Shown here one piece after another: positions 6,008 to 30,330 of a stretch of DNA of 38,571 nucleotides. The translations under genes and the position numbers were made by a program. The notes beneath the pieces were generated by a model. That model had not been told where the DNA came from. It worked only from the letters and a program-made list of their open reading frames with translations, and made no database searches. The number at the start of each line of letters is the position of its first letter. Position 1 is the first letter of the stretch. The DNA comes from Prevotella sp. (GTDB taxonomy: Bacteria; Bacteroidota; Bacteroidia; Bacteroidales; Bacteroidaceae), in the NCBI GenBank assembly GCA_017619275.1, contig JAFZSR010000095.1, forward strand, positions 1 to 38,571, given 5' to 3'.

Positions 6008-6156
6008 GCGTTACGTTACAGTTGTTACAGTTGCTTTTTTAAGGGGTATGCCTCTTGTTAAATTCAATATAATAATCTGATTATTAATTAGTTATAGTAC
6101 TATTTAAAGGGGTTATACCCTCTTTTTTTTCAACTGTAACAACTGTAACGTAACGC
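6008..6156. repeat. Perfect 26-bp inverted repeat of TGTTAC words around an AT-rich spacer
   Basis: Left arm 6008-6033 and right arm 6131-6156 are exact inverted copies (GCGTTACGTTACAGTTG... outward to inward). Each arm contains repeated GTTAC / GTAAC words. The 97-bp spacer is AT-rich and holds two similar AAGGGGTaTacC-like segments near its ends. It lies between the DUF3987 gene and the small gene upstream. It could be an origin-like site, an operator or a terminator; the sequence alone does not decide. Confidence 0.85.
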
Positions 6157-6177
6157 ACTCAGTCTTGCGGTGGTTAC

Positions 6178-6588
6178 TCACTCTCCTATAAGGCCACCAA
6201 GGGCCAAGCAAATCTCGTTGCAAACTCCGAGGGCGAAGCGCTCGACGCTAAAGCCAGCCGACATCTTCAATTCCTTGAAGTTCAGACGCAGGCTGCTGTC
6301 GTCCCGTCTTGTCACCGTGAGGTACTCGCCGTCGAAAACGTGCGGATTGCGCTTGCTTGCGGTCAGGGGAACGGTCTCGACGAACGTGTAGTGCGGATCA
6401 CGATAGAGGAAGTCGTCGACGATGGCGTCTGAGTCAAGCTTCAAAACGCCTGGATAATCCTTACCTACTTTCATGCGCACGTCGCCACGCAGCATTGTTT
6501 TAAGGTCACAGCCCAAGTCTGTGTTTGCGTGCCAACCGTTGGGGCTGGCGCTCTTTGATTGTTTGTTCTTGTCTTCCATCATTTTCAT
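6178..6588 (-). CDS. Hypothetical protein upstream of the DUF3987/primase pair
   Basis: I do not recognise this family. The 136-residue reading starts at the ATG at 6588, preceded by an A-run typical of Bacteroidetes leaders. Other possible starts are ATG 6606, ATG 6582/6579 and, less likely, GTG 6660. The product is soluble, with a polar N-terminus (KMKMMEDKNKQSKSAS) and a mixed alpha/beta body rich in charged residues; no membrane segment or known motif is visible. It sits on the same strand as the DUF3987 and primase genes, separated from them by the inverted repeat. A TAACTTTG -7 box lies at 6699-6692. Confidence 0.5.
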   Translation of the reverse strand: MKMMEDKNKQSKSASPNGWHANTDLGCDLKTMLRGDVRMKVGKDYPGVLKLDSDAIVDDFLYRDPHYTFVETVPLTASKRNPHVFDGEYLTVTRRDDSSLRLNFKELKMSAGFSVERFALGVCNEICLALGGLIGE

Positions 6589-6691
6589 TTTTTTGGAAGT
6601 GAACATCTGTAACGTTTCCAGTCCTATGGCCAGATGTTTACCGAGACTGGCGGGAGCCACGCTGGGGCTTCATTCCCTTTGGAATCCAATG

Positions 6692-6699
6692 CAAAGTTA
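6692..6699 (-). promoter_or_regulatory. -7 box upstream of the small gene at 6178-6588
   Basis: TAACTTTG on the minus strand fits the Bacteroidetes TAnnTTTG consensus. No clear TTTG -33 is present at 19-21 bp. Confidence 0.35.
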
Positions 6700-6772
6700 C
6701 GGCTAAATGTTGAGAGTAGAGCAGAAAGTATTGGTTTTGAAAAAGCTGCCAAACAGGCCTTTCTGCCGCATG

Positions 6773-6954
6773 TTTTGACCCTAAACCGTCGTTTTGCCCC
6801 ATGGTCAGGAATGCCGAACGAGTTTTGACCTTTTATGCGTCTTTAGCGGTCAAAACAACTAACAGACTTTTGACCCTTTGATGGGAAAACAGGGGGTAAA
6901 ACAAAAAACTGACGCCTAAAGACGCCAGTCTGCATAACCTCGAAAAAGTCAAAA
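6773..6954. repeat. Five copies of TTTTGAC(C) in both orientations
   Basis: TTTTGACC occurs at 6773-6780, 6823-6830 and 6868-6875. The inverse GGTCAAAA is at 6848-6855 and GTCAAAA at 6948-6954. The segment 6661-6962 otherwise has no gene. Repeated octamers of this kind can be operator or iteron sites. Confidence 0.5.
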
Positions 6955-6962
6955 CATCTGTT

Positions 6963-8117
6963 CTATTCCATGGACTTCTCTTCTAAATCATCGATGAACG
7001 CATCAATTTGGCGGTTAAAGGCCTGTTGTTGCGCTTCATCCTTCGATGCCGTCAATACAGCCAGTTTCCTTTTTTCCGTCATGACGGCACTCATCTTGAC
7101 AACCCCGATTGTGCCTTCACAACGTTTAGTGATGTATTTTAGTATGGCATCGTTCTTGGTGCCGTTCCATCCACACCAGAAGAGTAGTCGCATGACGAAA
7201 TATCCTTTCAGCATGCCCTTCCAGCCAATGACGCCATCCATCTTTCCAGGCAATTCCAGGATATGGTCCAGCAGCAGGCGGAGTCTTTTCACCTTCGCCA
7301 AGTTATCCAGTCCCCATATCAGCGATTCCTCCTTGGTCAGCTCAGCCTTCTTACCCTCGTGAATGGCCACGCAGGCACAATTTAGGTTAAACAGATCACG
7401 ATTGAAACTATGAAACAAACTGGCAATATACTTTTTGCTGTCGTCGGCCTGTTCCAAGGCCTGTACAAAGTCGTTGTTCAAATCAGGGCGCTGGCTTTCA
7501 ATCATCTGAATGAACAACCTGCTGTCGCTCACCGAGCGGTAGTAATTGTCCAGATAGATAGGGTAAGCCGCCTCGGGATTTTGGCTGATGGCAATTTCGT
7601 CTTCAATCATCTTCACGGCAATGTCGATACATTCCTGAGCATCTTTCAGAAACGAGTTCAACTCTTGCAGAAGGTCTTGGGCATTCTGATCCTTATAGCT
7701 GTCCCAGCCAAAGAAATCCTGCATGTACGGACCGGTATATAGTGGCGTGTTGTCCATGATAGACACCTCCTTCTTGGTCTTGCCCTTGTTGCGGAATTCA
7801 GCCACAATCTTCTTCAGTCCGCTCAGCGTACTGCTCATCTTGCTCACCACCTCCTGCGCCGTAGTAACATATCGCCTGTGGTTGGTGGGATATTCCTTGT
7901 TGTATGTAGCTTCTATCTGCTTCAGCCGGTCCAGTTCCTTTAATGCATAATGATGACTGGTGCGTAGCCGGGCAATAAAGTTGTTCACCTTCTCAATATC
8001 CCACTTCTGCTGTTCCTGAATGCAATAGAGAAAACGGTCATGCTCAATCTCGCTGAACTTCTCGTCCAACCGTCTGATAGAGTCTTCATTATAATCATAT
8101 GGTGTAGAATATGCCAT
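6963..8117 (-). CDS. Hypothetical alpha-helical protein
   Basis: I do not recognise the family with confidence. The 384-residue protein is soluble and almost entirely helical, with heptad-like charged segments around residues 30-115 (for example FIARLRTSHHYALKELDRL) and 155-190, suggesting coiled coil. Tryptophans and WCGWNG lie in the C-terminal third. No signal peptide is seen. The start MAYSTPYDYNED leaves a leader of about 20 nt after the TATTTTTG -7 box at 8153-8146; ATG 8129 is an alternative, and an upstream reading to 8267 would cross the promoter. It is a single gene on the minus strand. Confidence 0.7.
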   Translation of the reverse strand: MAYSTPYDYNEDSIRRLDEKFSEIEHDRFLYCIQEQQKWDIEKVNNFIARLRTSHHYALKELDRLKQIEATYNKEYPTNHRRYVTTAQEVVSKMSSTLSGLKKIVAEFRNKGKTKKEVSIMDNTPLYTGPYMQDFFGWDSYKDQNAQDLLQELNSFLKDAQECIDIAVKMIEDEIAISQNPEAAYPIYLDNYYRSVSDSRLFIQMIESQRPDLNNDFVQALEQADDSKKYIASLFHSFNRDLFNLNCACVAIHEGKKAELTKEESLIWGLDNLAKVKRLRLLLDHILELPGKMDGVIGWKGMLKGYFVMRLLFWCGWNGTKNDAILKYITKRCEGTIGVVKMSAVMTEKRKLAVLTASKDEAQQQAFNRQIDAFIDDLEEKSME

Positions 8118-8145
8118 AGGCTTGGTCATTAAATTTTTTAGACTG

Positions 8146-8153
8146 CAAAAATA
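8146..8153 (-). promoter_or_regulatory. -7 box of the helical-protein gene
   Basis: TATTTTTG on the minus strand lies about 30 bp before the chosen start. A -33 box at normal spacing is weak. Confidence 0.4.
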
Positions 8154-8312
8154 CAAAAAAACCTTCTCATTGAGAAAAAATGAGAAGGGAAAATAGCCAT
8201 TTAAAACTATTTTAGCAATTTCGCAAACGATTCTTGCATAATAAGAGCTGGGAGTGCAAGAATCCATCCTATATGTTGTTCAATTTGCCCAAAAGTGGGT
8301 ATAGATTAAACG

Positions 8313-8453
8313 TTACCCTACTTTTGGGGGATTGTCATCAAGCATTTCGAAATATACGTTCAAAGCTTTCAGTTCTTTCGTGGGTATCTTTTCACCCATC
8401 ATTTCTTTAGCCTTCTTCAAAGCCTCGGATAAACTATCAGCCTCAATAGTCAT
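8313..8453 (-). CDS. Possible 46-residue protein or gene remnant
   Basis: An open frame starts MTIEADSLSEALKKAKEMMG and ends in NPPKVG. The composition is protein-like and helical, and the frame stays open a few codons upstream (VGKD), so it may be the tail of a lost longer gene. No convincing promoter or ribosome-binding site was found and I do not recognise it. Confidence 0.35.
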   Translation of the reverse strand: MTIEADSLSEALKKAKEMMGEKIPTKELKALNVYFEMLDDNPPKVG

Positions 8454-8488
8454 ATCCTTGCCCACCCGACTCCCCCCCTTAAAATGGA

Positions 8489-8524
8489 ACTGTCATCTGT
8501 CATAACTGTCATGACCGTCACGCG
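8489..8524. repeat. Array of TGTCA words upstream of HU gene 1
   Basis: Four close copies of a TGTCA-type word (CTGTCATCTGTCATAACTG, then TCATGACCGTCA) resemble one arm of the inverted repeat next to the second HU gene at 23759. A hairpin, CCTGTTTT / AAAACAGG, follows at 8527-8548. The rest of 8268-8640 shows only the doubtful small frame at 8313. Confidence 0.6.
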
Positions 8525-8649
8525 CGCCTGTTTTCCTGCAAAAACAGGCCGTTTCCAGGTGTAAACGACGGCGTTTTCGGGCGCAAACTGGGCGTTAGCA
8601 AAACTTAACGCTTAGATGGCATAAAAAGCTGAAAATAAATTGGAAAATA

Positions 8650-8681
8650 TTTGGTGGTTAAAGAAAAAGTTAGTATCTTTG
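8650..8681 (+). promoter_or_regulatory. Promoter of HU gene 1
   Basis: TTTG at 8650-8653 and TATCTTTG at 8674-8681 are separated by 20 bp, a near-ideal Bacteroidetes promoter. The second HU gene has the same two boxes and the same spacing. Confidence 0.8.
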
Positions 8682-8689
8682 CATATAGA

Positions 8690-8751
8690 AATCCAGCGCG
8701 CGGATTCAGAGAGAAACAACTGATTGTTAAACTATGAAAAACACATTTTAA
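8690..8751 (+). promoter_or_regulatory. HU gene 1 leader: palindrome plus mini-ORF MKNTF
   Basis: The leader contains AATCC-AGCGCGC-GGATT (8690-8706), then a complete five-codon reading frame, ATG AAA AAC ACA TTT TAA (8734-8751), ending 3 bp before the HU start. The palindrome, the GAGAG stretch and the ATGAAAAACAC string recur in the leader of the second HU gene, so the leader looks selected or copied as a unit. It may control translation. Confidence 0.55.
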
Positions 8752-8754
8752 GCT

Positions 8755-9216
8755 ATGTTGCAGATTGATCTTTACAAGAACAAGAACCAGGAAGCCCGCA
8801 ACTTCGGCAAGGTCTACGGGCGCGTTGACAACAAGGAGCCTATCGACCTGAACGGTCTGGCCAAGCACATCGCCCTGCACGGCTCGCCCTACACCCGCGA
8901 CGTGATTGGAGGCGTATTGACTCGTGCCGCCGATTGCGTGAAAGAACTCGCCCTCGACGGACAGCCCGTGAAGTTCGGCGACCTGTGCATCTTCAAATGC
9001 ACCGTGGTGAGCAAGCCCGCCGTGAGCGTGGAGAAGTTCGACCTCGCCGAGCACATCAGCAAGGTGCGCCTGACTTGCCGTCCCACCGGCGAGATGAACG
9101 CCAAGAAGCTCACGCAGGAGGCCAGCTTCGAGTACACCACGATGGCCCAGAAGCTGAAGGCTGGAGAGGCCACGCTGAGCAGCGAGAAGGGGAAGTATCT
9201 GGAGAGTGGGGAGTAA
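8755..9216 (+). CDS. HU-HIG domain DNA-binding protein (copy 1)
   Basis: This is a histone-like DNA-binding protein of the Bacteroidetes HU-HIG type, expected to bind or bend DNA in the nucleoid. The 153 residues include the HU-like GSPYTRDVIGGVLTRAADCV helix region, then LDGQPVKFGDLCIFK, and end in an Ala/Gly/Glu-rich tail (KLKAGEATLSSEKGKYLESGE, residues about 133-153). It is about 66% identical, without gaps, to the protein at 23050-23511 (101 of 153 by eye). As in the second locus, a smalltalk micro-protein gene follows. Promoter and leader are strong. Confidence 0.9.
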   Translation: MLQIDLYKNKNQEARNFGKVYGRVDNKEPIDLNGLAKHIALHGSPYTRDVIGGVLTRAADCVKELALDGQPVKFGDLCIFKCTVVSKPAVSVEKFDLAEHISKVRLTCRPTGEMNAKKLTQEASFEYTTMAQKLKAGEATLSSEKGKYLESGE

Positions 9217-9309
9217 TAACCCACCCCCAGAAGCCCCACCCCAGGAGCCTCACCCCCAACCCCTCTCCGATTGGAGAGGGGAGTATATAGACCTTTCTCT
9301 TAATTGATT

Positions 9310-9344
9310 GCGTGATAACGTAATAACGTTATGACGTTATAACG
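9310..9344. repeat. Array of ATAACGT words upstream of smalltalk 1
   Basis: The segment reads GATAACGTAATAACGTTATG followed by ACGTTATAACG: several direct and inverted copies of an AACGT core. It resembles the GTTAC arrays beside the DUF3987 gene (6008-6156). Confidence 0.55.
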
Positions 9345-9371
9345 AAAAAAAGAAAAACCGAAAAACCAAAA

Positions 9372-9494
9372 ATGAAAAACACTATGTCAGTACCAAACAA
9401 GAAATGGGACTTTTGGATCAGGCTGGTAGCCGCCATCGTCTCGGCCATCGCAACCTCGCTGGGTGTCAGCTCGTGCGTGAGCTGGGTGGTTTAG
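9372..9494 (+). CDS. Smalltalk protein (copy 1)
   Basis: This 40-residue protein belongs to the Bacteroidetes 'smalltalk' micro-protein family, whose function is unknown. A polar, basic N-terminus (MSVPNKKWDFWIR) leads to a hydrophobic helix, LVAAIVSAIATSLGV, then SSCVSWVV. The VSSC could act as a lipobox, which would leave a mature lipopeptide of only six residues. ATG 9384 is an alternative start. The gene follows HU copy 1, as the second smalltalk gene follows HU copy 2. It begins with the same ATGAAAAACAC string found in both HU leaders. Confidence 0.85.
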   Translation: MKNTMSVPNKKWDFWIRLVAAIVSAIATSLGVSSCVSWVV

Positions 9495-9499
9495 AAGCA

Positions 9500-9545
9500 G
9501 ACCCTCCCCCTTCACCTCCCTTAAGGGAGGGGAGTGTATAGACTC
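9500..9545. repeat. GC-rich palindromic repeat
   Basis: A CACCTCCC-TTAA-GGGAGGGG palindrome with a TGTATAGAC tail lies just after smalltalk 1. Its tail resembles those of the copies at 9281, 10020 and 11995. Confidence 0.7.
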
Positions 9546-9635
9546 ATCCGCAAGAGCAAGAGCAGGGACAAACGAAAAAGCTATCTACTCCCCTCTCCAA
9601 TCGGAGAGGGGTTGGGGGTGAGGCTTGAAAAGGGG

Positions 9636-9995: not shown

Positions 9996-10016
9996 TTGCT
10001 CTGTTGATTGTTCAAT

Positions 10017-10079
10017 ACGTTTGTCTATATAGCCCCCCTCCCGTTCGGGAGGGCTTGGGGGTGGGTGTCTGGGTGCTGG
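10017..10079. repeat. GC-rich palindromic repeat between operon genes
   Basis: The palindrome CCCTCCCGTTCGGGAGGG has a GTCTATATAG tail on one side and a G-run with GGGTGTCTGG on the other. It is an inverted relative of the copy at 11950-12008. Confidence 0.75.
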
Positions 10080-10093
10080 GGGGGTGGTCAAAA

Positions 10094-10441: not shown

Positions 10442-10448
10442 CGGGTGC

Positions 10449-10655: not shown

Positions 10656-10697
10656 GTGTACTTAAATTTTTTTACTGTTAACTTTTTGAACTTTGCG

Positions 10698-10787: not shown

Positions 10788-10880
10788 CGAATTTTTCTTT
10801 TACGATGGCATGAAAACGTGTTATTTTTTCGTTAAAAATGTTAGATTTTGTTCATTTAACAAAGTTTATGCAGGAAAACG

Positions 10881-10911: not shown

Positions 10912-10991
10912 CGCTGTCATTTAAGCATTAGGATGCTTGATGGGGCAAGAACAAAACTAAAAAAACAAATAATCATTTTTTTTAAACAACT

Positions 10992-11510: not shown

Positions 11511-11513
11511 ATA

Positions 11514-12597: not shown

Positions 12598-12690
12598 CTA
12601 AATGATAAAAGTGAAGCGGCCTTCGGCCTAAATGATAAATGATAAATGATAAATGAAAAAATGATAAATGATCAATGAAAAAAGGATAAT
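12598..12690. repeat. TGATAAATG tandem repeat with GGCCTTCGGCC hairpin
   Basis: Several direct copies of an AATGATAAATGATAAATG word and a CGGCCTTCGGCCTAAATG element fill the gap between def and the TPR gene. The same words, inverted, recur at 18244-18378. Confidence 0.8.
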
Positions 12691-14686
12691 GCAGAATCGT
12701 GATTCCAGCCGCATGATGTTGCGGATGGTATTATCGTTTATCCTTTTTCATTTATCATTCATCCCGGCAGGGGCGCAATACAACACCGACCGCCTCATCA
12801 CCATCGGCCGCTCGGCCCTCTATTATGAGGACTATGTGCTGTCGATGCAGTATTTCAACCAGGTCATCACGCAGAAACCTTTCCTTTACGAACCGTGGTT
12901 TCTGCGTGGCATTGCCAAATACCATCTCGACGATTTTGTTGGGGCCGAGCACGACTGCACCGAGGCCATCAACCGCAACCCCTTCGTGGTGGGCATCTAC
13001 GAACTGAGGGGCCTCTGCCGCATTGAGCAGAAGAAATACGACGATGCCATCGCCGACTATAACCATGCCCTGCGCCTGTTGCCCAACAATCGTTCCATCT
13101 GGCACAACAGGGTGCTCTGCCACATTCAGAACAAGGAGTTCGACGAGGCCCTGCTCGAACTCGACACCATCCATCAGCGCTGGAAACAGTATGCCCCCGC
13201 CTATACCATGCGAGCCGACGTGCATATGCAGCAGAAGGACACGGCATTGGCCATCACCGCACTAGAGAAAAGTCTGGAGCTGGACCCCTACGACGGAAAG
13301 ACCTGGGCTATGAGGAGTCTCATCAGTCTGCAGCGGTCGCAATGGGCCGATGCCGAGCAACAACTTGACAAGGCCATCCACCTGCTGCCAAAGAACGGTG
13401 GCTACTACATCAACCGAGCATTGGCACGCTACAACCAGAACAACCTGCGCGGAGCCATGGCCGACTATGACATGGCGCTCGACCTGGAACCCAACAACTT
13501 CCTGGGACACTACAACCGCGGACTACTGCGCACCGACGTGGGCGACGACAACCGTGCCATCCTCGACTTCGACTTCGTGCTCCGCCTGGAGCCCGACAAC
13601 ATGCTTGCCCTCTTCAACCGCGGCGTGCTGCTGGAGCGAACCGGCGACATCAAGGGCGCCATCGAGGATTACACCAAAGTCATCGAGGAATATCCCAACT
13701 TCCACACCGGCATTCTCTATCGTGCCCGTTGCTATCGGCGGCTGGGCCAGACGCAGAAGGCCGAGCTGGAGGAGTTTCGCGTCTACAAGGAGCAGCTCTA
13801 TCAGCACCTCTATGGCATACAGCCAGGACAGGGCAAGCGCAACCAGCGCAAGCGCAGCGACCTGGACCCCGACAAATACGCCGAGCTGGTGGTGGAAGAC
13901 GAGCAGGAGCCTGAGCGCGAATATCAAAGCGACTATCGTGGACATGTGCAGAACCGCAAGGCCGACATGGAGCTGCTGCCCATGTTTGCGCTATCCCTGC
14001 AGCCCCAGCAGGACGGGGTGAACCGGACGCTGCACTACGACGCGGCCGTAGAACAGTTGAATAGGCAGCGCCAAGGGCGTACCATCTACGTCAGCAACCA
14101 GCATGCCCAGCTCGACACCCGCCACTCCGAAAGCTACTTCGGCTATATCGACTCGCTCAGCACCGCCATCGGCCAGGCTGGCTCGCTGCGCCGCACCATG
14201 CCTCTGCTGCTGGCACGCGCCGTGGCCTACGCCGCCGTGCAAGACAACGATGCCGCCATCCACGACCTGACAACCTATCTGGCCGAGGACTCCACACAGA
14301 TGTTGGCCCTGTGGCAGCGTGCCGTGTGCCGCCAGCGCATGGTCCTCTTTGCTGCCTCCGAGGGCAAGAGCACCGAGCTGGCGCAGCATGGCGTGGCGGC
14401 CGACTTGCAGAGCGCCCTTCGCCAAAACCCTCATAGCGGTTATCTGCTTTATAATATGGGCTGCCTCCTGGCGTGGCAGCAAGCCTACGCATCGGCCGAC
14501 GATTACTTCAGCCGTGCCATTGAGGCCGATTCACAACTGGCCGAGGCCTACTACAACCGAGGCATCTGCCGTCTGCACCAAGAACACATGGCCGAAGCCA
14601 CTGCCGACCTGAGCAAGGCTGGCGAGCTGGGGCTATACCAAGCATATAGCATCATCAAAAAATACAGGAATAATGCCGCAAAGTAA
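12689..14686 (+). CDS. Secreted TPR-repeat protein
   Basis: A large tetratricopeptide protein, about 665 residues, probably a periplasmic scaffold. The N-terminal signal peptide ends PAGAQ|YNTD. At least ten TPR units follow, with motifs such as LAIYHLDDFVGAEHDCTEAI-like, NRALARYNQNNLRGAMADYD and NRGVLLERTGDIKGAIEDY. A basic linker around QPGQGKRNQRKRSDLD separates N- and C-terminal TPR groups. The start is uncertain: ATG 12689 has AAAAAAGGATA before it; ATG 12668 and 12713 also work. The signal peptide DNA derives from a dispersed repeat. It is followed 27 bp later by the 5'-nucleotidase gene. Confidence 0.85.
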   Translation: MQNRDSSRMMLRMVLSFILFHLSFIPAGAQYNTDRLITIGRSALYYEDYVLSMQYFNQVITQKPFLYEPWFLRGIAKYHLDDFVGAEHDCTEAINRNPFVVGIYELRGLCRIEQKKYDDAIADYNHALRLLPNNRSIWHNRVLCHIQNKEFDEALLELDTIHQRWKQYAPAYTMRADVHMQQKDTALAITALEKSLELDPYDGKTWAMRSLISLQRSQWADAEQQLDKAIHLLPKNGGYYINRALARYNQNNLRGAMADYDMALDLEPNNFLGHYNRGLLRTDVGDDNRAILDFDFVLRLEPDNMLALFNRGVLLERTGDIKGAIEDYTKVIEEYPNFHTGILYRARCYRRLGQTQKAELEEFRVYKEQLYQHLYGIQPGQGKRNQRKRSDLDPDKYAELVVEDEQEPEREYQSDYRGHVQNRKADMELLPMFALSLQPQQDGVNRTLHYDAAVEQLNRQRQGRTIYVSNQHAQLDTRHSESYFGYIDSLSTAIGQAGSLRRTMPLLLARAVAYAAVQDNDAAIHDLTTYLAEDSTQMLALWQRAVCRQRMVLFAASEGKSTELAQHGVAADLQSALRQNPHSGYLLYNMGCLLAWQQAYASADDYFSRAIEADSQLAEAYYNRGICRLHQEHMAEATADLSKAGELGLYQAYSIIKKYRNNAAK

Positions 14687-17291: not shown

Positions 17292-17302
17292 ATAATCATC
17301 GT

Positions 17303-17345
17303 TCAATGTTCAACGTTCATCGTTCATCGTTCAACGTTCAACGTT
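17303..17345. repeat. GTTCAACGTTCATC tandem repeat
   Basis: Five or six degenerate copies of TTCAACGTTCA or TTCATCG lie between the CapA gene and the EEP nuclease and run into the last codons of the latter. Related GGTCAACGGTCAA words occur in the BspA-like gene (27008-27040) and the VirE/DUF3987 gene (28965-29056). Confidence 0.7.
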
Positions 17346-18297
17346 TAAAGTTCACCACCAGCGGCAGGTGGTCGCTGTAGCCACCGCGCTGATATTTGAA
17401 TCCTTGGAAGGTGCGCCGAGGCTTCCATCCGCCGTAGGTGGTCTCGCGCTCCAGCAGGAAGGGCGCATCGTTGATGAATGTACTTTCCACTTTGTTCAGC
17501 AACGGCGTGCTCACCAGTATATGGTCTATCGAGTGCCATTCGCCCTGGTAGCGGTAGGTGCCCTTAGCCCGTTTGTTTATGCCTTGTGTCTGAGCCGTCA
17601 GGTTATGCAAACCGTGCTGTGTGAGCATCTGTAGCGAGGGACTGTCGGCATAGTCGTTGAAGTCGCCCGCCACGATGATGTTCTGGTTGGCTATCGAGTC
17701 GATGGCTTGCAGCAGCATGCTTATCACCTGACGGCGATGTGGCCGAGTCTCCAATTCCCCGCCGTAGCGGCTGGGCGCATGCACGATGAAGAGGTGGAGC
17801 GTGTCGGCATGCACCGTCTCCCCGCGTACATATAATATATCGCGCGTAGCACGCATGTCATCTAGCGTGGGCACGTTGATGTGTTCGTAGCAGATGGGGC
17901 GGAAGCGCTGGGGGTGATAGAGCAGGGCGATGTCGAGCCCGCGAACGTCGGGCGAGCAGGTCATCAGGTATTCATATCCCGCTCCCCGCAGCAATGAACG
18001 GCGTGTAAGGTCGCGCATCACCGTGTCGTTCTCGATTTCCACCAGCGCCACCAGGTCGGGCAGTTGCTCCGAACACGATAGCAGCTCCTGTGCAATGGCG
18101 TTCAGCTTGTTCCAATAGCGGGTGCGCGTCCATCGGCGGCTCCCGTCGGGCGTGAATTCGTGGTCGTCCTTCCCCTCGTCGTGTTGGCAGTCGAAGAGGT
18201 TCTCGCAGTTCAGCTCCACGAAGACCTGCGCCCCGGCGGGGCTATATGACAAATTAAAAATGATAAATGATAAAACTACCAGCAAGTATGGCCGCAT
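17338..18297 (-). CDS. Secreted endonuclease/exonuclease/phosphatase (EEP) family protein
   Basis: An EEP-fold hydrolase with an N-terminal signal peptide (LSFIIFNLSYSPAGAQ), so it acts outside the cytoplasm, probably on nucleic acids or phosphodiesters. Motifs in order: ELNCENLFD, VALVEIEND (metal-binding Glu), VHAPSRYGGE, VAGDFNDYADSPS and the terminal YSDHLPLVV with the catalytic Asp-His pair. About 319 residues from ATG 18297; the alternative ATG 18315 lies in the TGATAAATG repeat. The signal peptide DNA is closely similar to that of the TPR protein. The end runs into the GTTCAACG repeat. Confidence 0.88.
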   Translation of the reverse strand: MRPYLLVVLSFIIFNLSYSPAGAQVFVELNCENLFDCQHDEGKDDHEFTPDGSRRWTRTRYWNKLNAIAQELLSCSEQLPDLVALVEIENDTVMRDLTRRSLLRGAGYEYLMTCSPDVRGLDIALLYHPQRFRPICYEHINVPTLDDMRATRDILYVRGETVHADTLHLFIVHAPSRYGGELETRPHRRQVISMLLQAIDSIANQNIIVAGDFNDYADSPSLQMLTQHGLHNLTAQTQGINKRAKGTYRYQGEWHSIDHILVSTPLLNKVESTFINDAPFLLERETTYGGWKPRRTFQGFKYQRGGYSDHLPLVVNFKR

Positions 18298-18378
18298 AGC
18301 TCTATCATTTATCATTTCTCATTTATCATTTAGGCCGAAGGCCGTAGTTATCATTTATCATTTGTCATTTCTCATTTA
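18244..18378. repeat. TGATAAATG repeats with GGCCGAAGGCC hairpin
   Basis: Inverted relatives of the 12598-12690 repeat: ATCATTTATCATTTCTCATT words and TAGGCCGAAGGCCG occur at 18298-18378. One copy (18244-18276) lies inside the 5' end of the EEP nuclease gene. Confidence 0.8.
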
Positions 18379-23049: not shown

Positions 23050-23511
23050 CTACTCGCCCGTTTCCAGGTACTTTCCCTTCTCCGAGCTCAGGGTGGCCTC
23101 GCCGTCCTTGATGCGCTGTGCCATGGTGGTGTAGGAGAGCTGCACGTCGCCTTTCATGTTCTTGATGCGGGTGGCACCGGTGGCTCGGCATCCCAGTCGG
23201 ATGGCTTTGATGTGCTCGTCGAGACTGAACTTCTCCACGCTCACGGCGGGGGCGCTCACGGCGGTGGCCTTGAAGATGCACAGGTCGGCCAGCTTCACGG
23301 GCTGTCCCTCCAGCACCAGGTGCTTGATGCAGTCGGCGGCCTTGATGAGCACGGCGAAGATGACGTCGCGGGTGTAGGGGCTGCCGTGCTGGCTGATGTG
23401 CGTCGACAGGCGGTCAATCTCCCAAGGGTCCTTGTTGTGCACGCGTCCGTAGACTTTGCCGAACTGGCGGCTCTCCTGGTTCTTGTTTTTGTAGAAGTCG
23501 ATTTCAAGCAT
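23050..23511 (-). CDS. HU-HIG domain DNA-binding protein (copy 2)
   Basis: The paralogue of the protein at 8755-9216: same 153-residue length, about 66% identity by eye. It starts MLEIDFYKNKNQESRQFGKV and shares GSPYTRDVI, DLCIFK, PAVSVEKF and the tail GEATLSSEKGKYLETGE. The middle (about 110-125) diverges most, so the two may bind different sites or partners. It is transcribed divergently from the S24 gene; the long inverted repeat at 23759-23932 lies between their promoters. Promoter boxes and leader closely resemble those of copy 1. Confidence 0.9.
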   Translation of the reverse strand: MLEIDFYKNKNQESRQFGKVYGRVHNKDPWEIDRLSTHISQHGSPYTRDVIFAVLIKAADCIKHLVLEGQPVKLADLCIFKATAVSAPAVSVEKFSLDEHIKAIRLGCRATGATRIKNMKGDVQLSYTTMAQRIKDGEATLSSEKGKYLETGE

Positions 23512-23617: not shown

Positions 23618-23758
23618 TTTCGGCACCTCAATTCGCCCCGTTTTCAGCAGCAGCCCGCGCAATTGGGCTGTACGCCCCGTTTTCGTCTGCCAGCGCACCG
23701 TTTTCTGCCGCCATCGCATCGTTTCTCTCTTCATGACCAGCATCCCCAGTGGTGACAC

Positions 23759-23932
23759 TGTGACATGTGACTTTGTGACATTAAGCACCTCCCCTATGTG
23801 TGTGCCCCCTCTCTACAACATAACCATATATAAATAATATATAATAATTATTAATAATATTTAAAATACCATACTCTCTTTTTCATCCCCCACATATTCA
23901 ACCTCCTTAATGTCACAATGTCACATGTCACA
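23759..23932. repeat. 27-bp inverted repeat of TGTGAC words around an AT-rich spacer
   Basis: Left arm 23759-23785 and right arm 23906-23932 match in inverted orientation at 26 of 27 positions. Each has three TGTGAC words and ends inward in ATTAAG. The spacer of about 120 bp is AT-rich, with runs such as AAATAATATATAATAATTAT. It sits in the 580-bp gap between the divergent HU copy 2 and S24 genes. The layout is the same as 6008-6156. A single related arm is at 30299-30330. Confidence 0.85.
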
Positions 23933-24011
23933 AAGTATCATTTTTTTCGACCCCACGTATTTTTTTTCAAGAAAAAGGGGGGGAATGGCGTGCGTTCTCA
24001 GATTTTATTTG

Positions 24012-24094: not shown

Positions 24095-24964
24095 ATGGAT
24101 TACGACTTTGAAAATGAGAGCACGGCCGAGCAGCTGGCGAAGGAGCTGCGCGAGTCAGGATGGAATGCACACGTGACCGACGAGACGGGGTGGCATGCCG
24201 AGTCGAAGGTGCGCGCCGGGCGGCCCTCGGGGCTGGGCGACGAGCGCCAGCAACGCGCGCTGGAGGATGCCGTGCGGCTGCAGGGCAGGGTGACGGCCGA
24301 CATCATTGGCGACTCGATGACGGACCTCGACATTGAGGACGGCGACGAGGTGATCATCGACACGACGGCGCGCCCCCACGACGGCGACGTGGTGCTGGCG
24401 TGCATCGACGACGAGTTCACCGTGAAGGTGCTCTTCACCGACGCCAAGGGGCAGCGGTGGCTGCTGCCGGCCAACAAGAGCTTCGCGCCCATCATGATGG
24501 AGCCTGCGGCGCAGATTCGCGGCTGTGTGGTGAGGGTGATGAAGCGCAAGCCGCACATGGACTACAACGCTTGCCTGGGCGTGCTGAAGGCCGCGGGGAG
24601 CGTGAAGCTTCGCGTGCCCACCGACTTTGAGGTGCAGCATGCCATCACGGTTGTGGCGAAGAGGGTGCGCTCGGGACGCCAGTGGTATGTGCTGATGCGG
24701 GCGCTCGTGGACACGCACTACCTGCAGCCCACCGAGTATGCGCGCTTTGTGAAGCTGGTGGAGGTGTTCGCAGCCGAGTGCCGGTTCAAGCCCAGCGTGC
24801 GCGAGCTGTCGCGACTGGCCGTCGACAGCTTTTCCAAGCCCATAGAGCGCTGGGACAAGAACAACGCGCCGGTGAAGGGGACCGTGTTCGACGAGTACCT
24901 CAGCCTGGCCCAGCAGGCGCTGGCCTTGCTGGAGAAGGAGGAGAGGCTGGAGCTGCCCTTCTGA
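24095..24964 (+). CDS. UmuD/LexA-like S24 peptidase with an extra C-terminal domain
   Basis: A self-cleaving S24 protein of 289 residues. The likely cleavage site is Ala41-Gly42 in KVRAG|RPSG, matching the AG site of UmuD. The catalytic Ser74 lies in IIGDSM, and Lys111 in DEFTVKVLF. No helix-turn-helix is visible in the 40 residues before the cleavage site, so it is UmuD-like rather than a repressor such as LexA. No umuC follows. Residues about 155-289 form an extra, mostly helical domain (TDFEVQHAITVVAKRV, then FVKLVEVFAAECRF) that I do not recognise. The upstream frame to 23918 was rejected because it would translate the inverted repeat and promoter. Confidence 0.82.
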   Translation: MDYDFENESTAEQLAKELRESGWNAHVTDETGWHAESKVRAGRPSGLGDERQQRALEDAVRLQGRVTADIIGDSMTDLDIEDGDEVIIDTTARPHDGDVVLACIDDEFTVKVLFTDAKGQRWLLPANKSFAPIMMEPAAQIRGCVVRVMKRKPHMDYNACLGVLKAAGSVKLRVPTDFEVQHAITVVAKRVRSGRQWYVLMRALVDTHYLQPTEYARFVKLVEVFAAECRFKPSVRELSRLAVDSFSKPIERWDKNNAPVKGTVFDEYLSLAQQALALLEKEERLELPF

Positions 24965-25178: not shown

Positions 25179-27140
25179 ATGGAAATGCAGCACAAAACAA
25201 TGATGATGCGGGCAGCCGTTACGCTGCTGCTCGCCGTGATGACCGTCGCAGGAGCACGGGCCGACGACAGCGGCCCGTGCGGTGCTGGTGTTTATTACCA
25301 TTATTATAGCGACACTCAGAAGTTGGAAATTTACAGGGAAGGCCTGGGGTATGGGGCAATAGACAATATTCCGTGGAAATCTTACCGCGCGGAAATCAAG
25401 GAAGTGGTCATCGGCGATGGGGTGACTAGCATCGTCATGGGGGCCTTCGAGTATTGTACCGCGCTGACGAGCATCAGCATCCCCAACTCCGTGAGCAAAA
25501 TCGGCCCATACGCCTTCGAAGGCTGTACCGCGCTGACGAGCATCAGCATCCCCAACTCCGTGACCAGCATCGGCCCGTCCACCTTCGAAAGCTGTACCGC
25601 GCTGACGAGCGTCAGCATTCCCAACTCCGTGATCACCATCGGCGAGTACGCCTTCAAGTATTGTTACGCGCTTACGAGCATCAACATCCCCCAATCCGTG
25701 ACCAGCATCGGCGTGGGCGCCTTCTCTGGTTGTTCCGCACTAACTTCGGTTTATTGCAATCGTAACACACCGCCCACTTTGGAAAAGGACGATTTGGGTC
25801 TGCTTCCGTTCGCTGGCAACGCTAACGGCCGCAAATTCTACGTGCCAGAAAACTGCGTGAACGCCTACAAGGCAGCATGGAGCGAATATAGCGGCGACAT
25901 TGTGGGCACCACCTTTTATCCCATCAACATCATCGTCAACTCAGATGACGGCGGTACGGTGGAGGTGTCCTCCTCCAGCGCTGCTCCTGGCGAAGTCGTT
26001 GGATTGAGGGCTACGCCCAGCGAGCGTTACAAGTTCGTCTCGTGGGAAGGAGCGGGTGGAGCAGTATTCTACAACAGCTTCGCCGCGCAGACCACATTCA
26101 CAATGCCAGCAGGTGAGGTGACTATCGCGGCAAAATTCAAAAGCTGGGGTAGCACCATCGGCGTATACAATTTGCATCTTTGGCCCCAAAATGGAGATGA
26201 TGATGTCATAATTACTGCCAATGAATACACCCTTCCCTCTCTAAGTCAGCCACGCAATGTCTTCCTGGGCTGGTGCGAAGCGGCTGACGGCACAGCTGCC
26301 ATATACCCCGCCGGCGAAAAACTCACTCTTGGCGGCGACCTGACGCTTTATGGAATCTGGCGGGAGGACCCCATAATCCTGGCCGACAATAACAACAACA
26401 CCACCCTCCTACAAACTCTCGAAAAATCTGGCAAAGGCGTTAATGTAAAACTGAAACGAACGTTCATCACCAACGGCAACTGGAACACGCTGTGCTTGCC
26501 CTTCGACACAGCACTTGAAGGCACCCCACTCGCAGGCGGCGAGCTGATGGAGCTCGACAACAGTAAGACGCGCTACGCCGACGGCACACTCAACCTGTAC
26601 TTCAAGGCTGCACCGAGCATCGAGGCGGGCATGCCGTATCTCATCAGGTGGGTAACCCCCGAAAACCCACCGAACCAACCTGTGGATGAAAGCCAGTTGA
26701 ACGCCGCAACATTCTTCCAGAATGTCACCATCACCCGTTATTCTGCTACTTATATCGTAAGCGACGACGGTAGTGTGACCTTCTGCGGCAACCTCGTCCC
26801 CAAAGGACTCGAAGCCGACGACAGGAGCATCCTCTACTTGGGCGACGGAAACACCCTCTACTACCCCAACGCGCAGATGAATGTGAAAAGCTTCCGCGCC
26901 TACTTCCAGCTGAACGACGGCCTCACGGCCTCACCCGACCCCTCGCAAGGAGAAAAGAGCGTGCGCATTGTGCTGGGCTTCGGCGAAGGTGAAGCCACCG
27001 GCATTGATGATGTTCAACGGTCAACGGTCAACGGTCAATCAGCGTCTGCTTGGCACACGCTCGACGGCCGCCAGCTCCTCCACCAGCCCACCGCCAAGGG
27101 CCTGTACCTGCATGGCGGGCGCGCGGTGGTGATAAAGTGA
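25179..27140 (+). CDS. BspA-like leucine-rich repeat surface protein
   Basis: A secreted adhesin-like protein of 653 residues. Signal peptide about 1-28 (ends GARA|DDS). Five BspA-type (LRR_5) repeats of 23 residues with the pattern [17 protein letters not shown] span about 70-195. One bacterial Ig-like/B-repeat domain ([17 protein letters not shown]) and an InlB-like segment ([11 protein letters not shown]) follow to about 405. A beta-rich domain then leads to the C-terminal GIDDV...WHTLDGRQL...[13 protein letters not shown]. That tail recurs in Prevotella secreted proteins and is probably a sorting or anchoring signal. The ATG at 25185 is an alternative start. The tail includes a GGTCAACGGTCAACGG repeat translated in frame. 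Confidence 0.88.
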
Positions 27141-27156
27141 CCTCGGCGGCAGCCTA

Positions 27157-27217
27157 TTTCTTACACGTTTCCGCCCCTTCCAGTGTGGTTTCTTACACGC
27201 GGGGCCTTCTCTTACAC
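27157..27217. repeat. Three TTTCTTACAC words downstream of the BspA-like gene
   Basis: TTTCTTACAC occurs at 27157-27166 and 27189-27198 and TCTCTTACAC at 27208-27217, roughly 20-30 bp apart. No function assigned. Confidence 0.4.
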
Positions 27218-27236
27218 TTTTTCTTCCCATTTCTTC

Positions 27237-27272
27237 CACCCGATGAAGTTTTGCTTCGCCGGGTGTTTTTTT
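27237..27272 (+). terminator. Rho-independent terminator of the BspA-like gene
   Basis: Stem CACCCG (27237-27242) / CGGGTG (27260-27265) with an inner GAAG / CTTC pairing, followed by seven T. Confidence 0.8.
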
Positions 27273-27277
27273 GTGCC

Positions 27278-27285
27278 TACCTTTG
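27278..27285 (+). promoter_or_regulatory. -7 box of the BRO-VirE/DUF3987-DUF5675 operon
   Basis: TACCTTTG directly follows the terminator. The nearest TTTG (27250-27253) is 24 bp upstream, longer than usual. The leader to the BRO start is about 140 nt. Confidence 0.5.
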
Positions 27286-27432
27286 CATTGTCAACCTCCA
27301 CCCCGGCACCAAGGGCGTTGGGGCAAGAAGAGGGGGGACAACAGTGTTTAACCAGGGTTGCAGCCGAGGGGGATGTTCTCGAGTAAATGGCCAAGGAATC
27401 CGACGTTCTTCCCGCAACAACAACTAAAAACA

Positions 27433-28110
27433 ATGGAAACAAAGATTCAAATTTTCAAAAGCAACGTCTTCGGCGAAGTGCGGACGTTGACAAACGAGAA
27501 GGGCGAGACGTTCTTCGTGGGCAAGGACGTGGCCGAGGCGCTGGGCTACAGCAACAGCCGCGATGCGCTGTACAGGCATGTTGACCAAGAGGACAGAACC
27601 ACTGTCGTGATTCACGACGGTGGACATAACACCCGAGTCGTGGTCATCAACGAGAGCGGCCTCTACTCGCTCATCCTCTCGTCGAAGCTGGAACAGGCGA
27701 AGGCCTTCAAGCGCTGGGTGACCTCGGAGGTGCTGCCCGCCATACGCCGCTCGGGTGTCTACGAGCTGCAGCCGGCAGGGGTGAAGCTGCTGGCCTCGCA
27801 GGCGGAGTATTGCCAGGAGGTGCTGCAGAGCGTGGACTGCGTGACGACGACGCAGGTGGCCAAGGAGATGGGGATGACGGGCGCCGAGCTCTACCGCTGG
27901 CTGGTGGCGCTGCAGGTGCTCTACTGGCAGAGCGGCGAGTATATGCTCTATGCCGACTTTGCCCGCATGCGACTGACGAAGACGCGCACGCACAGCCGTC
28001 GCAACCGCTTGGGCGCGGTCCACACGCAGCGCTATCTGGTATGGACAGAAGAGGGGCGCAAGTTCCTGCACGAGCTGCTCGACCCAGCAAGGAAGGAGGT
28101 GGCAGCATGA
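27433..28110 (+). CDS. BRO family / phage antirepressor protein
   Basis: A phage-type DNA-binding regulator of 225 residues. Residues 1-105 are a Bro-N domain (VFGEVRTLTNEKGETFFVGK, DVAEALGYSNSRDAL, then INESGLYSLILSSK and FKRWVTSEVLPAIR). Residues about 115-225 match a KilA-C/ANT-type domain (TQVAKEMGMTGAELYRWL ... RYLVWTEEGRKFL). In phages such proteins antagonise repressors. Here the gene opens an operon, with its stop overlapping the next start (ATGA). The start METKIQIFKS was preferred to an upstream ATG that has no similarity to the family. Confidence 0.88.
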   Translation: METKIQIFKSNVFGEVRTLTNEKGETFFVGKDVAEALGYSNSRDALYRHVDQEDRTTVVIHDGGHNTRVVVINESGLYSLILSSKLEQAKAFKRWVTSEVLPAIRRSGVYELQPAGVKLLASQAEYCQEVLQSVDCVTTTQVAKEMGMTGAELYRWLVALQVLYWQSGEYMLYADFARMRLTKTRTHSRRNRLGAVHTQRYLVWTEEGRKFLHELLDPARKEVAA

Positions 28111-30305
28111 CGGCAGTAAAGACGGCATTCACATGCATAGGCAAGGGGCACGGCTCACCTTGCCTGCCCGCCACCAGAGACGAATGGGAGAAGCTGCGCC
28201 GCGAGCCGTGGCTGGCAGAGATGTGCGCACGCATTGAAAACGGCGAAGAGCAACTGAAGCACCGATTGCCCGTGTGGACACCACATTGCGCCGCCTTCAA
28301 CAACAACCACCGGGCCACGGCCGATGCCACCATGCCGCTGCGGCGGCTCATGCTCGACTTCGACGAGAAGGGGCACACCGACGAGATAAAGGCCAGGCTG
28401 ATGCAGAAAAGCCCCCTCGTGGTGCTGCTCATCGAGGAGTCGGTGAGAAGGGGCACACACGTGCTGGTGGAGCTGCCCGACGGCATCGACGCCGACAAGG
28501 CGCAGCAGCTGATGAAGGAGGCTACCGGATTCGCCCCCGACGCTGTCGTGAAGGACGTGGCGCGATGCATCTACATGGTGACCGAGGGACACACCCGCTA
28601 CGTGTCGGAACGCCTGTGGAACCCCACTCCCATGCCCTCTCCAGTTGGAGAGGGGCAGGGGGAGCGGCCTCTTCCCTCTCCAGTTGGAGAAGGGGCGGGG
28701 GAGAGGCTTTTCAAGGGCATCCCCTACGCCTCCATCATCCGCGAGTGGTGGATTCGCAATGGCGGCGAGCCACAGGAGGGCGAGCGAAACGTGAAGCTGC
28801 ACAAGCTGGCCGTGAGCCTACGCTCCATCTGCGACAACAGGAAAGAGGTGCTCATGGCCGTGATGCCACGCTACGGCCTTCCCGAGGCAGAGCTGAGGAG
28901 CATCGTAGACTCGGCCTGCAAGGAAGAGCCCAAGGGGATATCGAAGGTGATGCTTCAAATCATTGACCATTTAACATTGACCATTGACCATTCTGATGAC
29001 GATTGGGACGATGTCGCGGCAAACGATGGTCAATCGTCAATCGTCGATGTTCAATGGAACAAGCTGCCTATCGGACTGCGCGAGACGCTTGTGGGCGTGC
29101 CGGCACCCATGCACATGCCCGTGCTCTGCTCGGTGCTGCCCCTGGCAGCGGCATACGCCGACCAGGTGGAGGTGACGTATTGCGACGGCAACCGGCAGCG
29201 GCTGGGACTCATGTCGATAGTGCGCGGCGACCAGGCTTCGGGCAAGTCGGTCTGCAAGAATGCCATCGACATCTGGAAACGGCAGTTCGACGAAGAAGAC
29301 GCCCTGGCACGGCGGCGCGAGGAGGAATGGCGCGAGCGGAAGAAAGGGCGCAAGGCCAACGAGAAGGCCCCCGACGACCCGAAGGTGCTCATACGCATGG
29401 TGCCCGTCACCGTGTCGTGCTCCACGCTCCTGAAGCGGCTCAAGAACTCAAGCGGACACTGCCTCTACTCGTTTGGCGAGGAACTCGACACGCTCCGAAA
29501 AACCAATGGCGCCGGCTCGTGGAGCTCGAAGTACGACATCTATCGAGTGGCCTTCGACAATGGCGAGTGGGGACAGGACTACAACTCCGACCAGGCAGAG
29601 TCGGGCGTGGTGAGGGTGGCCTACAACTGGACCATGCTTGGCACCAACGGAGCCATGCGCCGCTGCTTCAGGCAGGACAACATCGAGAACGGACTTTCGA
29701 GCCGAATACTCGTGGCCGAGATGCCCGACGCATCGTTCACGAAGATGCCCAAGTATGGACGCCGCTCGACCGAAGACGAGGCACGCATACAGGAGGCCGT
29801 CACAAGGCTGCGCTCCTTCGCAGGACTCATCGACACACCACGCCTGCGCAAGGCCATCGAGGAGTGGGCCGAGCAGAAAAGGGTGGAAGCCGCCAAGGAC
29901 ATCGACCACGTGAAGGACACATACCGCAAGCGGGCGGCAGTCATCGCATTCCGGTGCGGCGTAGTACACCACTTGCTCACAGGCAAGGCGCACGAGACGA
30001 AGGCCACCATCGACTTCGCCAAGGCGATGGCCGACTACTGCCTGGCCGAGCAGATAAGCGCATTCGGCGAGGCACTGCAAAACCAGTACGCCGACAACGG
30101 CGAGGGAGGCAGGCGACATGGCAGCAACCACACCATCTTCGACCAGCTGCCACCCACGTTCACCCTCGACGACCTCAGGGCGCTCAAGCGGGGGATGTGC
30201 GGAGAGTCGGCCGTCAGGAAAATCATCTCACGATGGTATCGCGACAGCTGGATAGAAAAAGCCGACCGCGCGCACTGGAAGAAACTGGCAACAGGGAATT
30301 TGTGA
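28107..30305 (+). CDS. VirE N-terminal (BT4734-like) / DUF3987 primase-helicase-like protein
   Basis: A 732-residue protein of the kind seen in Bacteroidetes accessory loci, with a primase-like N-terminus and an ATPase C-terminus. Residues about 45-170 are the BT4734/VirE-N domain (PLRRLMLDFDEKGHTDEIKA, VELPDGIDADKAQQLM). A helical PriCT-like part follows (about 205-285). The DUF3987 part has a Walker A-like GDQASGKS near residue 375 and SFGEELDTLRK. Start ATG overlaps the BRO stop, after GGAAGGAGG. Two repeat-derived inserts lie in frame: residues about 172-202 and 287-317. The stop lies inside a TGTGAC-type repeat arm. Confidence 0.85.
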   Translation: MTAVKTAFTCIGKGHGSPCLPATRDEWEKLRREPWLAEMCARIENGEEQLKHRLPVWTPHCAAFNNNHRATADATMPLRRLMLDFDEKGHTDEIKARLMQKSPLVVLLIEESVRRGTHVLVELPDGIDADKAQQLMKEATGFAPDAVVKDVARCIYMVTEGHTRYVSERLWNPTPMPSPVGEGQGERPLPSPVGEGAGERLFKGIPYASIIREWWIRNGGEPQEGERNVKLHKLAVSLRSICDNRKEVLMAVMPRYGLPEAELRSIVDSACKEEPKGISKVMLQIIDHLTLTIDHSDDDWDDVAANDGQSSIVDVQWNKLPIGLRETLVGVPAPMHMPVLCSVLPLAAAYADQVEVTYCDGNRQRLGLMSIVRGDQASGKSVCKNAIDIWKRQFDEEDALARRREEEWRERKKGRKANEKAPDDPKVLIRMVPVTVSCSTLLKRLKNSSGHCLYSFGEELDTLRKTNGAGSWSSKYDIYRVAFDNGEWGQDYNSDQAESGVVRVAYNWTMLGTNGAMRRCFRQDNIENGLSSRILVAEMPDASFTKMPKYGRRSTEDEARIQEAVTRLRSFAGLIDTPRLRKAIEEWAEQKRVEAAKDIDHVKDTYRKRAAVIAFRCGVVHHLLTGKAHETKATIDFAKAMADYCLAEQISAFGEALQNQYADNGEGGRRHGSNHTIFDQLPPTFTLDDLRALKRGMCGESAVRKIISRWYRDSWIEKADRAHWKKLATGNL
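28621..28711. repeat. Tandem GC-rich palindromes inserted in frame in the VirE/DUF3987 gene
   Basis: Two tandem copies of CCCTCTCCAGTTGGAGA-GGG with a G-rich side arm, encoding PMPSPVGEGQGER and PLPSPVGEGAGER. The preceding and following residues, ERLW and ERLF, look like a duplicated junction. Confidence 0.85.
28965..29056. repeat. TTGACCATT / GGTCAAT inverted repeat inside the VirE/DUF3987 gene
   Basis: Words ATTGACCATT (three copies, 28969-29001) and the inverse GATGGTCAATCGTCAATCG (29025-29043) flank a short acidic stretch (DDDWDD). The segment stays in frame and lies between the N-terminal part and the ATPase domain. Confidence 0.7.
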
Positions 30306-30330
30306 CATTTGACATTGTGACATTAAGCAG
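30299..30330. repeat. Single TGTGAC-type repeat arm
   Basis: TTTGTGACATTTGACATTG then TGACATTAAGC closely follows the left arm of the 23759-23932 inverted repeat, including the ATTAAGC end. It spans the stop of the VirE/DUF3987 gene and ends 10 bp before DUF5675. No inverse partner was found nearby. Confidence 0.7.

Follow-up and report, generated by a model that had tools for sequence, protein, structure and literature searches.

The window analysed here is a stretch of 38,571 nucleotides from a Prevotella sp. genome (contig JAFZSR010000095.1 of assembly GCA_017619275.1, positions 1 to 38,571 of the forward strand), in which arrays of short repeated DNA words lie beside two genes of the DUF3987 type. 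It appears moderately probable that these arrays are initiator-specific iterons of DUF3987 primase-helicase initiators, that they are origin-like, and that they have spread as mobile copies.

The first of the two genes (4651..5967, minus strand) encodes a 438-aa DUF3987-like protein, the proposed initiator of a second family. Its downstream partner is a DnaG-type zinc-finger primase gene (3688..4638, minus strand; PF01807 1.3e-16; PHROGs DNA primase 4.8e-26). An inverted pair of GTTACAGTT words with an AT-rich centre (6008..6156) is located 41-189 bp before the start codon of the 438-aa gene. The second gene (28107..30305, plus strand) encodes a VirE-DUF3987 protein, 732 aa long if translation begins at 28107, as is likely (PF13148 3.8e-7 for the longer open reading frame, ORF). 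It resides in a cassette that includes the second copy of an HU-HIG gene (23050..23511, minus strand; PF18291 2.8e-8), the left neighbour of an origin-like element at 23744..23936. In this element, an AT-rich centre is flanked by two GTGAC arrays (arms at approximately 23759-23787 and 23900-23934), each of which ends in ATTAAG. The variable cargo begins with an S24/LexA-type peptidase gene (24095..24964, plus strand; PF00717 4.9e-16) and includes a BspA-type leucine-rich-repeat protein (25179..27140, plus strand; PF13306 4.7e-37). A BRO-N/KilAC antirepressor-like gene (27358..28110, plus strand; PF02498 5.3e-27, PF03374 6.6e-19) stands directly before the VirE-DUF3987 gene. A half array (TTGTGACATTTGACATTGTGACATTAAG; 30299..30330, plus strand) covers the VirE-DUF3987 stop codon directly before the DUF5675 gene (30340..30750, plus strand; PF18925 1.9e-33), the common right end of the cassette. 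HU-HIG copy 1 is at 8755..9216 (plus strand; PF18291 2.1e-10).

A sequence-only reading of the window had described five sites of one design, at 6008-6156, 8489-8524, 9310-9344, 23759-23932 and 30299-30330. Repeated words are indeed present at all five, and the two sites described as long inverted repeats around an AT-rich centre were borne out. The arms 6008-6033/6131-6156 form an inverted repeat of 26 bp at 100% with 97 bp between them, and the arms 23759-23800/23891-23932 form one of 42 bp that is 81% complementary with 90 bp between them. The strict array-inverted-repeat detector missed both of these headline sites and was replaced. The words of the five sites differ (GTGAC; GTTACAGTT; GATGACA; TAACGTTA), and the single design holds for three of them, 6008-6156, 23759-23932 and 30299-30330, which fit one device; those at 8489-8524 and 9310-9344 are not simply joined to it.

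DUF3987 proteins were matched in 35 of the 60 genomes of the genus searched. In one genome (G007), an array lies at the VirE-DUF3987 end before DUF5675, the same place as 30299-30330 of the window, and 40 DUF3987 loci of the genus, window included, were therefore compared (one of 41 was left out at a contig end). Word arrays span the gene 3′ end in many of these loci, and the words differ from gene to gene. Such arrays were found in 25/40 DUF3987 zones against 33/264 control ORFs from four genomes (p 4e-11), with two of the control genomes, G016 and G040, giving only 4/103. A second set was drawn from 199 relatives found by scanning named genomes with an alignment of 14 proteins. The best 80 of these 199 were kept and are titled Prevotella, Xylanibacter or uncultured Prevotellaceae, Bacteroidaceae, Bacteroidales or Bacteroidia. 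The two sets overlap in part, as L280/G007, L327/G043 and L324/G053 are apparently the same genomes. In 73 of the 80 loci, one of 13 core words is present two or more times at the VirE-DUF3987 3′ end (GTGAC in 35, GTCCC in 12, GTAAC in 9, GCCAC in 7 and others in 10). The same count was reached in 94/861 other ORFs of the same loci, in 25/264 control ORFs and in 30/80 when the VirE-DUF3987 zones were read backwards.

The 3′ array matches an inverted pair located kilobases upstream, which was noted in 7 of the first 20 loci, with the word changing between species. Among the 67 of the 80 loci with at least 2.5 kb of upstream DNA, 43 have an upstream pair that matches their own 3′ array. When upstream pairs were compared with the 3′ arrays of other loci, matches were found in 48 of 3326 comparisons with a different word class and in 488 of 1076 with the same class. 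When the search made no use of the 3′ array, pairs were recovered in 45/67 loci, against 3/67 with the sequence reversed. In 39 of these 45, pair and 3′ array had the same word (shuffled mean 12.2, maximum 24). The complete site lies approximately 1.5-9.5 kb upstream of the VirE-DUF3987 gene, whose 3′ end has no more than a half array. In the 43 loci, the GC content is 23% in the AT-rich centre of the pair and 49% in the loci as a whole. A perfect palindrome of at least 20 bp is present in 26 of the 43 centres, against 1/860 shuffled, and the centre in the window has one of only 12 bp. The same architecture with another word (CGTTGCAG) and a palindromic AT-rich centre was observed at approximately 1440-1620 of locus L051 (G015).

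The VirE-DUF3987 protein is predicted to fold into an AEP-like primase (residues ~5-175), an MCM-like AAA+ helicase (~316-661) and a C-terminal winged helix (~675-726), in a structure model with a pLDDT of 87.8 and a pTM of 0.57. The modelled helicase has the expected MCM AAA+ fold with a Walker A motif. Neither a transposase nor an HUH domain was seen by Pfam or in the structure model. A PDB sequence search gave no match, and Foldseek matches of the N-terminal domain all had E > 0.01 and were unused.

It is the winged helix that tracks the word best. This was examined in 59 proteins, obtained from the 80 by excluding 16 with stop codons, adding that of the window and excluding 6 of the resulting 65 without a word class. 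The nearest neighbour was of the same word class for 50 proteins when the winged helix was compared, for 37 with the ATPase core and for 27 with the N-terminal part (permuted mean 16.8, maximum 30). After removal of pairs with a core identity of at least 0.90, the numbers were 47, 22 and 20. The ATPase core thus also carries some word signal, much less than the winged helix, as expected from shared ancestry. The putative recognition helix is RNIITRW in proteins with GCCAC and RN[IV][IV]MRWK in those with GTCCC, and in most cases RMIISRWM for GTAAC and RKIISRW for GTGAC; a GTGAC subgroup with other spacing has a different helix. The HU-HIG protein was set aside as the less probable reader of the word: it adjoins the pair in 31/43 loci, but the word tracks the DUF3987 winged helix. 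For DUF3987, the 3′ arrays and this covariation lend good support to the sequence-only proposal of a DNA-binding or replication role, in which a primase was one candidate. The idea of one factor reading one GTNAC word was dropped because the words differ by initiator, and they vary among the five sites as well.

The same device is found in the second family. The 438-aa protein has no Pfam, NCBIfam or PHROGs match, and its earlier DUF3987 label stands only in the sense of a distant VirE-DUF3987 relative (phmmer 2.7e-15). Among 100 genomes of the genus, 50 contain a match, a number that includes distant DUF3987 proteins. Of 20 close matches (L348-L367), 18 were used, as L366 has no start and L367 has stops. 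Of these 18 orthologs, 17, window included, have an inverted pair within the interval from -220 to -33 relative to the start codon, and the single ortholog without one has just 142 bp upstream. The words vary among orthologs (e.g., GTTACAGTT, GTTCCAGTTCCA, CTTACAGTCTTACAG, CGTCTCAACGTCTCA). Where only the first part of the gene is present, 16 of 18 loci keep the pair in this position, and the same score was reached in 25/180 random windows of those loci. The break points differ among the truncated copies and two seem by eye to be joined to primase fragments, a pattern typical of deletion derivatives in which the site is retained. One truncated copy with a broken frame (L390) keeps an inverted pair of AGTCTCAGTCTCAG words. 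The site at 6008-6156 is the same device as the VirE-DUF3987 pair.

The anatomy is shared with the origins of phage-inducible chromosomal islands (PICIs) and, in part, with Cch2 of the staphylococcal cassette chromosome mec (SCCmec). On this basis, the pair is interpreted as an origin. The half array would be a further binding site, and the dispersed copies would be derivatives that carry the origin. In the proposed mechanism, the DUF3987 initiator would bind its own short word via its C-terminal winged helix. A full site consists of two inward-pointing word arrays, each ending in ATTAAG or similar, around an AT-rich and often palindromic centre of approximately 100 bp. Such a site would undergo melting and be of the origin type that loads two helicases head to head. 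The full site of the VirE-DUF3987 cassette is the one between HU-HIG and cargo, with a half array at the initiator 3′ end that would be a second site of binding, and that of the 438-aa family is the pair directly before the initiator gene. The sites are in addition dispersed through the genome as small non-autonomous units. Some of these carry a stub of the initiator gene, and a cognate initiator would probably propagate them in trans. What the analysis shows is the anatomy, the word matches within loci, the covariation with the winged helix, the predicted fold and the dispersal; DNA binding, origin activity and mobilisation in trans are inferred.

Certain observations weigh against this interpretation. 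The 3′ array adjoins the helix-coding DNA, so linkage could explain part of the covariation between word and helix, although it does not account for the match with the distant pair. Three genomes (G018, G044, G075) have GTGAC pairs, yet no DUF3987 locus fetched from them has that word, which contradicts a strict rule of one gene and one family. Moreover, the complete origin of PICIs and of the Staphylococcus aureus pathogenicity islands (SaPIs), in the excerpts cited below, lies immediately 3′ of the initiator gene; here it is found kilobases upstream, whereas in the 438-aa family it immediately precedes the gene. A more far-reaching proposal, less probable than not, is that these are selfish origin elements, in which origins rather than transposon ends are amplified through Prevotella-type chromosomes as small non-autonomous units. 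Each family would be under the control of its own primase-helicase through a readable code in the C-terminal winged helix, with HU-HIG and a cargo slot (restriction or defence genes possible) as companions.

Copies of the sites are scattered through the genomes. The 23759 element is present in 14 copies in this genome, the others being 88-94% identical to the window copy, and 7 of the 14 are cut by a contig end. Two of them lie less than 1 kb from one of the ten HU-HIG matches of the genome, namely that of the window and one on contig C13. Genes resembling uvrB, uvrA, a TlpA-like gene and an acyl-CoA ligase are neighbours of these copies, with names assigned by eye. In two other genomes, the GTGAC core lies in the tilS-ileS and the carB-uvrD intervals, these genes again being named by eye. 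The dispersed unit (L217-L220; window 23620-23740) also has an array of ~21 bp (CGCACCGTTTTCCGCCGCCAA) at one side; at the other, most copies have a palindrome that ends close to ACTTGCGAAACTTGA.

Eleven 3′ arrays were searched against 24 genomes (E <=1e-4). The 11 combinations of an array with its own genome gave 44 matches, and the 253 other combinations gave 22. The own-genome counts omit only the gene of the query, and at least one match (G061:1931815) is the 3′ end of another DUF3987 gene. These matches are uneven, with half coming from one G061 word and none from four words, and some of the 22 fall in genomes whose own DUF3987 gene carries the same word. Many matches are paired 100-200 bp apart, mostly with the plus strand first (exceptions G018:C249 and G049:C32). 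In the genome of the window, a second inverted pair carries the AGGAGTTT word of the DUF3987 gene on C123. The GATGACAG word, that of the C64 DUF3987 gene, is found again at nine other places; HU-HIG genes adjoin three of these, one being 8475-8512 of the window. The best matches between units common to G000 and G075 measure 430 bp (94%) and 401 bp (98%), and their fetched flanks do not match at E 1e-6. The genome-wide array search scored 28/66 candidates in G063 and 28/33 in G000.

Such dispersal could also result from transposition or a REPIN-like process, with the inverted pair as the mobile unit, the DUF3987 protein as its mobiliser and the word match as end recognition instead of replication. 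The dispersed pairs are intergenic at the places inspected, and the units shared by G000 and G075 have inverted arms and homology limited to the unit, which may or may not point to miniature inverted-repeat transposable elements (MITEs). The truncated initiator genes, including the two apparently fused to primase fragments, would also fit, and the gene-adjacent repeat tends to match a dispersed family in the same genome, as do the RAYT/REPIN pairs in the excerpted account of PMC3116915. However, the protein is predicted to combine a primase, an MCM-like helicase and a winged helix, with no transposase or HUH domain seen, and the AT-rich palindromic centre and the fixed place of the pair within the initiator locus are features of an origin. 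Transposition is regarded as rather unlikely.

In 31 of the 43 loci with a matching pair, the cassette has an HU-HIG relative to the left of this pair, on the minus strand and 34-518 bp away (in one case 1455), and 7 of the 12 loci without one have less than 1.2 kb of DNA there. Burroughs et al. (2017), describing the HU-HIG expansion in Bacteroidetes, reportedly tied these genes to mobile-element conflicts and proposed no cognate DNA words. To the right of the pair are 1-13 cargo ORFs, with 262 mechanically called ORFs in all, of which 121 have no relative among the others. A 144-aa gene without a Pfam match is present in 32/43 loci between the pair and the VirE-DUF3987 gene, and DUF5675 lies at most 800 bp from the VirE-DUF3987 stop in 70/80 loci. 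The ORFs common to at least 19 of the 43 loci are HU-HIG, the 144-aa gene, VirE-DUF3987 and DUF5675. No ORF cluster outside the cassette is common to at least 4 of the 43 loci, and the cassette therefore seems to be placed at many chromosomal sites.

The cargo slot (L268-L347) holds methylases, restriction endonucleases, HIRAN, RhuM and KilA/BRO antirepressor genes. A scan of 101 cargo proteins (100 of the 119 plus-strand ORFs of at least 150 aa and the S24 protein of the window) by PADLOC gave mad2 for 9/101 and type II methylases for 5/101. No recombinase was among the 25 most matched of the 54 Pfam families in these proteins, nor among ten representatives of shared cargo-zone clusters, at most three of which had matches at 0.001 or better (PIN, HIRAN). 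The S24 peptidase was rejected as a conserved partner, as no relative of it was found at E 1e-3 in the 80 loci; one genus locus (L264) has one. A plasmid origin was rejected with no PLSDB match. A phage source was also set aside: three IMG/VR loci have half arrays by eye, without an upstream pair at the score limit in the ~1, 2 and 8 kb searched. Two short phage-labelled contigs were observed, one with an imperfect 22-bp pair just 3′ of the gene. On a 4.1-kb phage-labelled contig from human stool (L378), a DUF3987 gene is followed by a GGTCATTAAGG inverted pair, resembling the sequence after the genes of L133 and L136.

This arrangement leaves room for the arrays to be operators, bound by DUF3987, or by HU-HIG, S24 or BRO/KilAC proteins, that regulate divergent HU and cargo promoters and DUF5675 with no part in replication. 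The pair does stand beside the minus-strand HU-HIG gene, the half array directly before DUF5675, and S24 and antirepressor genes among the cargo. An ATPase-helicase would be an unusual repressor, however; arm spacing and AT-rich centre are kept while the cargo varies, and the dispersed pairs are found by eye in tandem and divergent places alike. Regulation of this kind is improbable.

Short arrays also lie near other genes of this genome. The sequence-only reading saw none beside housekeeping genes, which is false, and its rule that arrays mark every HU-HIG, smalltalk and DUF3987 gene exclusively is wrong. Tandem Repeats Finder places further arrays of 7-8-bp words in the window at 2472-2577, 12629-12763, 17296-17354, 18246-18378 and 28961-29045, the first of which adjoins ribosomal protein S2 and the second peptide deformylase. 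Their words (GTCGTTTG, TAAATGA, TCAACGT, ATGATAA, CATTGAC) are unrelated, and 4 of the 5 are inverted pairs by the array-inverted-repeat detector (0 in 10 shuffles). Elsewhere in the genome, 22/106 long ORFs in eight sampled 20-kb stretches have a 3′ array. TGTNAC as such is not enriched in the window (49 against 59 +/- 9 in shuffles). Clusters of at least four words per 40 bp occur at six window spots (6009, 6135, 9316, 23752, 23911, 30301), against 0.95 per dinucleotide shuffle, and site 8489 is below this threshold; this support is circular because the word set was built from the words of the sequence-only reading itself.

The array at 8475..8524, of the GATGACAG/TGTCATC word family, is single and has its word family in common with the 3′-end array of the C64 DUF3987 gene (C120:8475-8512, E 3.5e-5); ordinary tandem repeat background is possible for 8489-8524. 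It is the likeliest explanation of 9310..9344, a palindromic array of TAACGTTA words in a separate word family, for which no DUF3987 partner gene was found. The 9310 word recurs by eye at an apparent atpH-atpA junction (L384, G000:C75). The neighbouring ORF labelled smalltalk (9374-9495) has no NCBIfam match, and smalltalk was rejected as a conserved partner, with no relative of this 40-aa ORF in the 80 loci (ORFs of at least 40 aa considered). That all of the arrays are ordinary short tandem repeats near many genes, as their frequency in this genome and the many words without a DUF3987 partner might suggest, is very improbable, since such a background would be expected neither to match the 3′ array with a distant pair nor to covary with the winged helix, and control genomes G016 and G040 have few arrays; it is disfavoured for 6008-6156, 23759-23932 and 30299-30330.

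If the initiator and iteron interpretation is true, a function, a DNA target and a helix that determines specificity could be assigned to DUF3987 proteins, with the word-helix pairs as a draft recognition code. HU-HIG proteins would gain a defined DNA context, the dispersed repeat family would be explained as copies of cognate origins, and a PICI-like origin architecture would be extended to a family of Bacteroidales elements. Searches of the open-access PMC literature brought up no paper on a DUF3987 word system and nothing relevant on HU-HIG.

The similarity to known systems can be followed in the cited excerpts. PICI origins are served by an initiator helicase whose C-terminal domain binds DNA, and two iteron sets flank an AT-rich region (PMC6092414, PMC7581432). 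The Rep replicon of SaPIs and PICIs, as excerpted there, is matched here in the helicase initiator, in the C-terminal DNA-binding domain (here predicted), in short iterons forming two sets around an AT-rich region, in a primase that is fused or adjacent and in iterons at the initiator gene 3′ end. It differs in the DUF3987 initiator family, the phylum, the frequent HU-HIG neighbour and the dispersed genomic copies of the site, and no integrase was recognised among the shared cassette genes here. The complete origin is placed differently, and an integrase and a helper phage may or may not belong to the elements, which are therefore not called PICIs. In SCCmec, the C-terminal domain of Cch2 is described as binding a direct-repeat site downstream of the gene (excerpt of PMC7581432). 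Cch/Cch2 (5dgk) likewise belongs to a self-loading helicase family; by comparison with what that excerpt covers, the inverted pair with its AT-rich centre and the word classes changing with the winged helix are different, and no Ccr recombinase was recognised here.

The RAYT/REPIN system, as far as the excerpt of PMC3116915 describes it, also joins one gene, a cognate adjoining repeat and dispersed inverted doublets in the same genome. Its Y1/HUH transposase is replaced here by a predicted primase-helicase, and arrays of 8-9-bp words make up the repeat. Within the genus, the PINSR of Prevotella intermedia is a dispersed intergenic repeat of 188 bp with 177-184 copies in one clade, reported without terminal inverted repeats in the excerpt consulted (PMC4755523). 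Compared by description only, it resembles the present sites as a dispersed intergenic repeat in a Prevotella, whereas the pairs described here have inverted arms.

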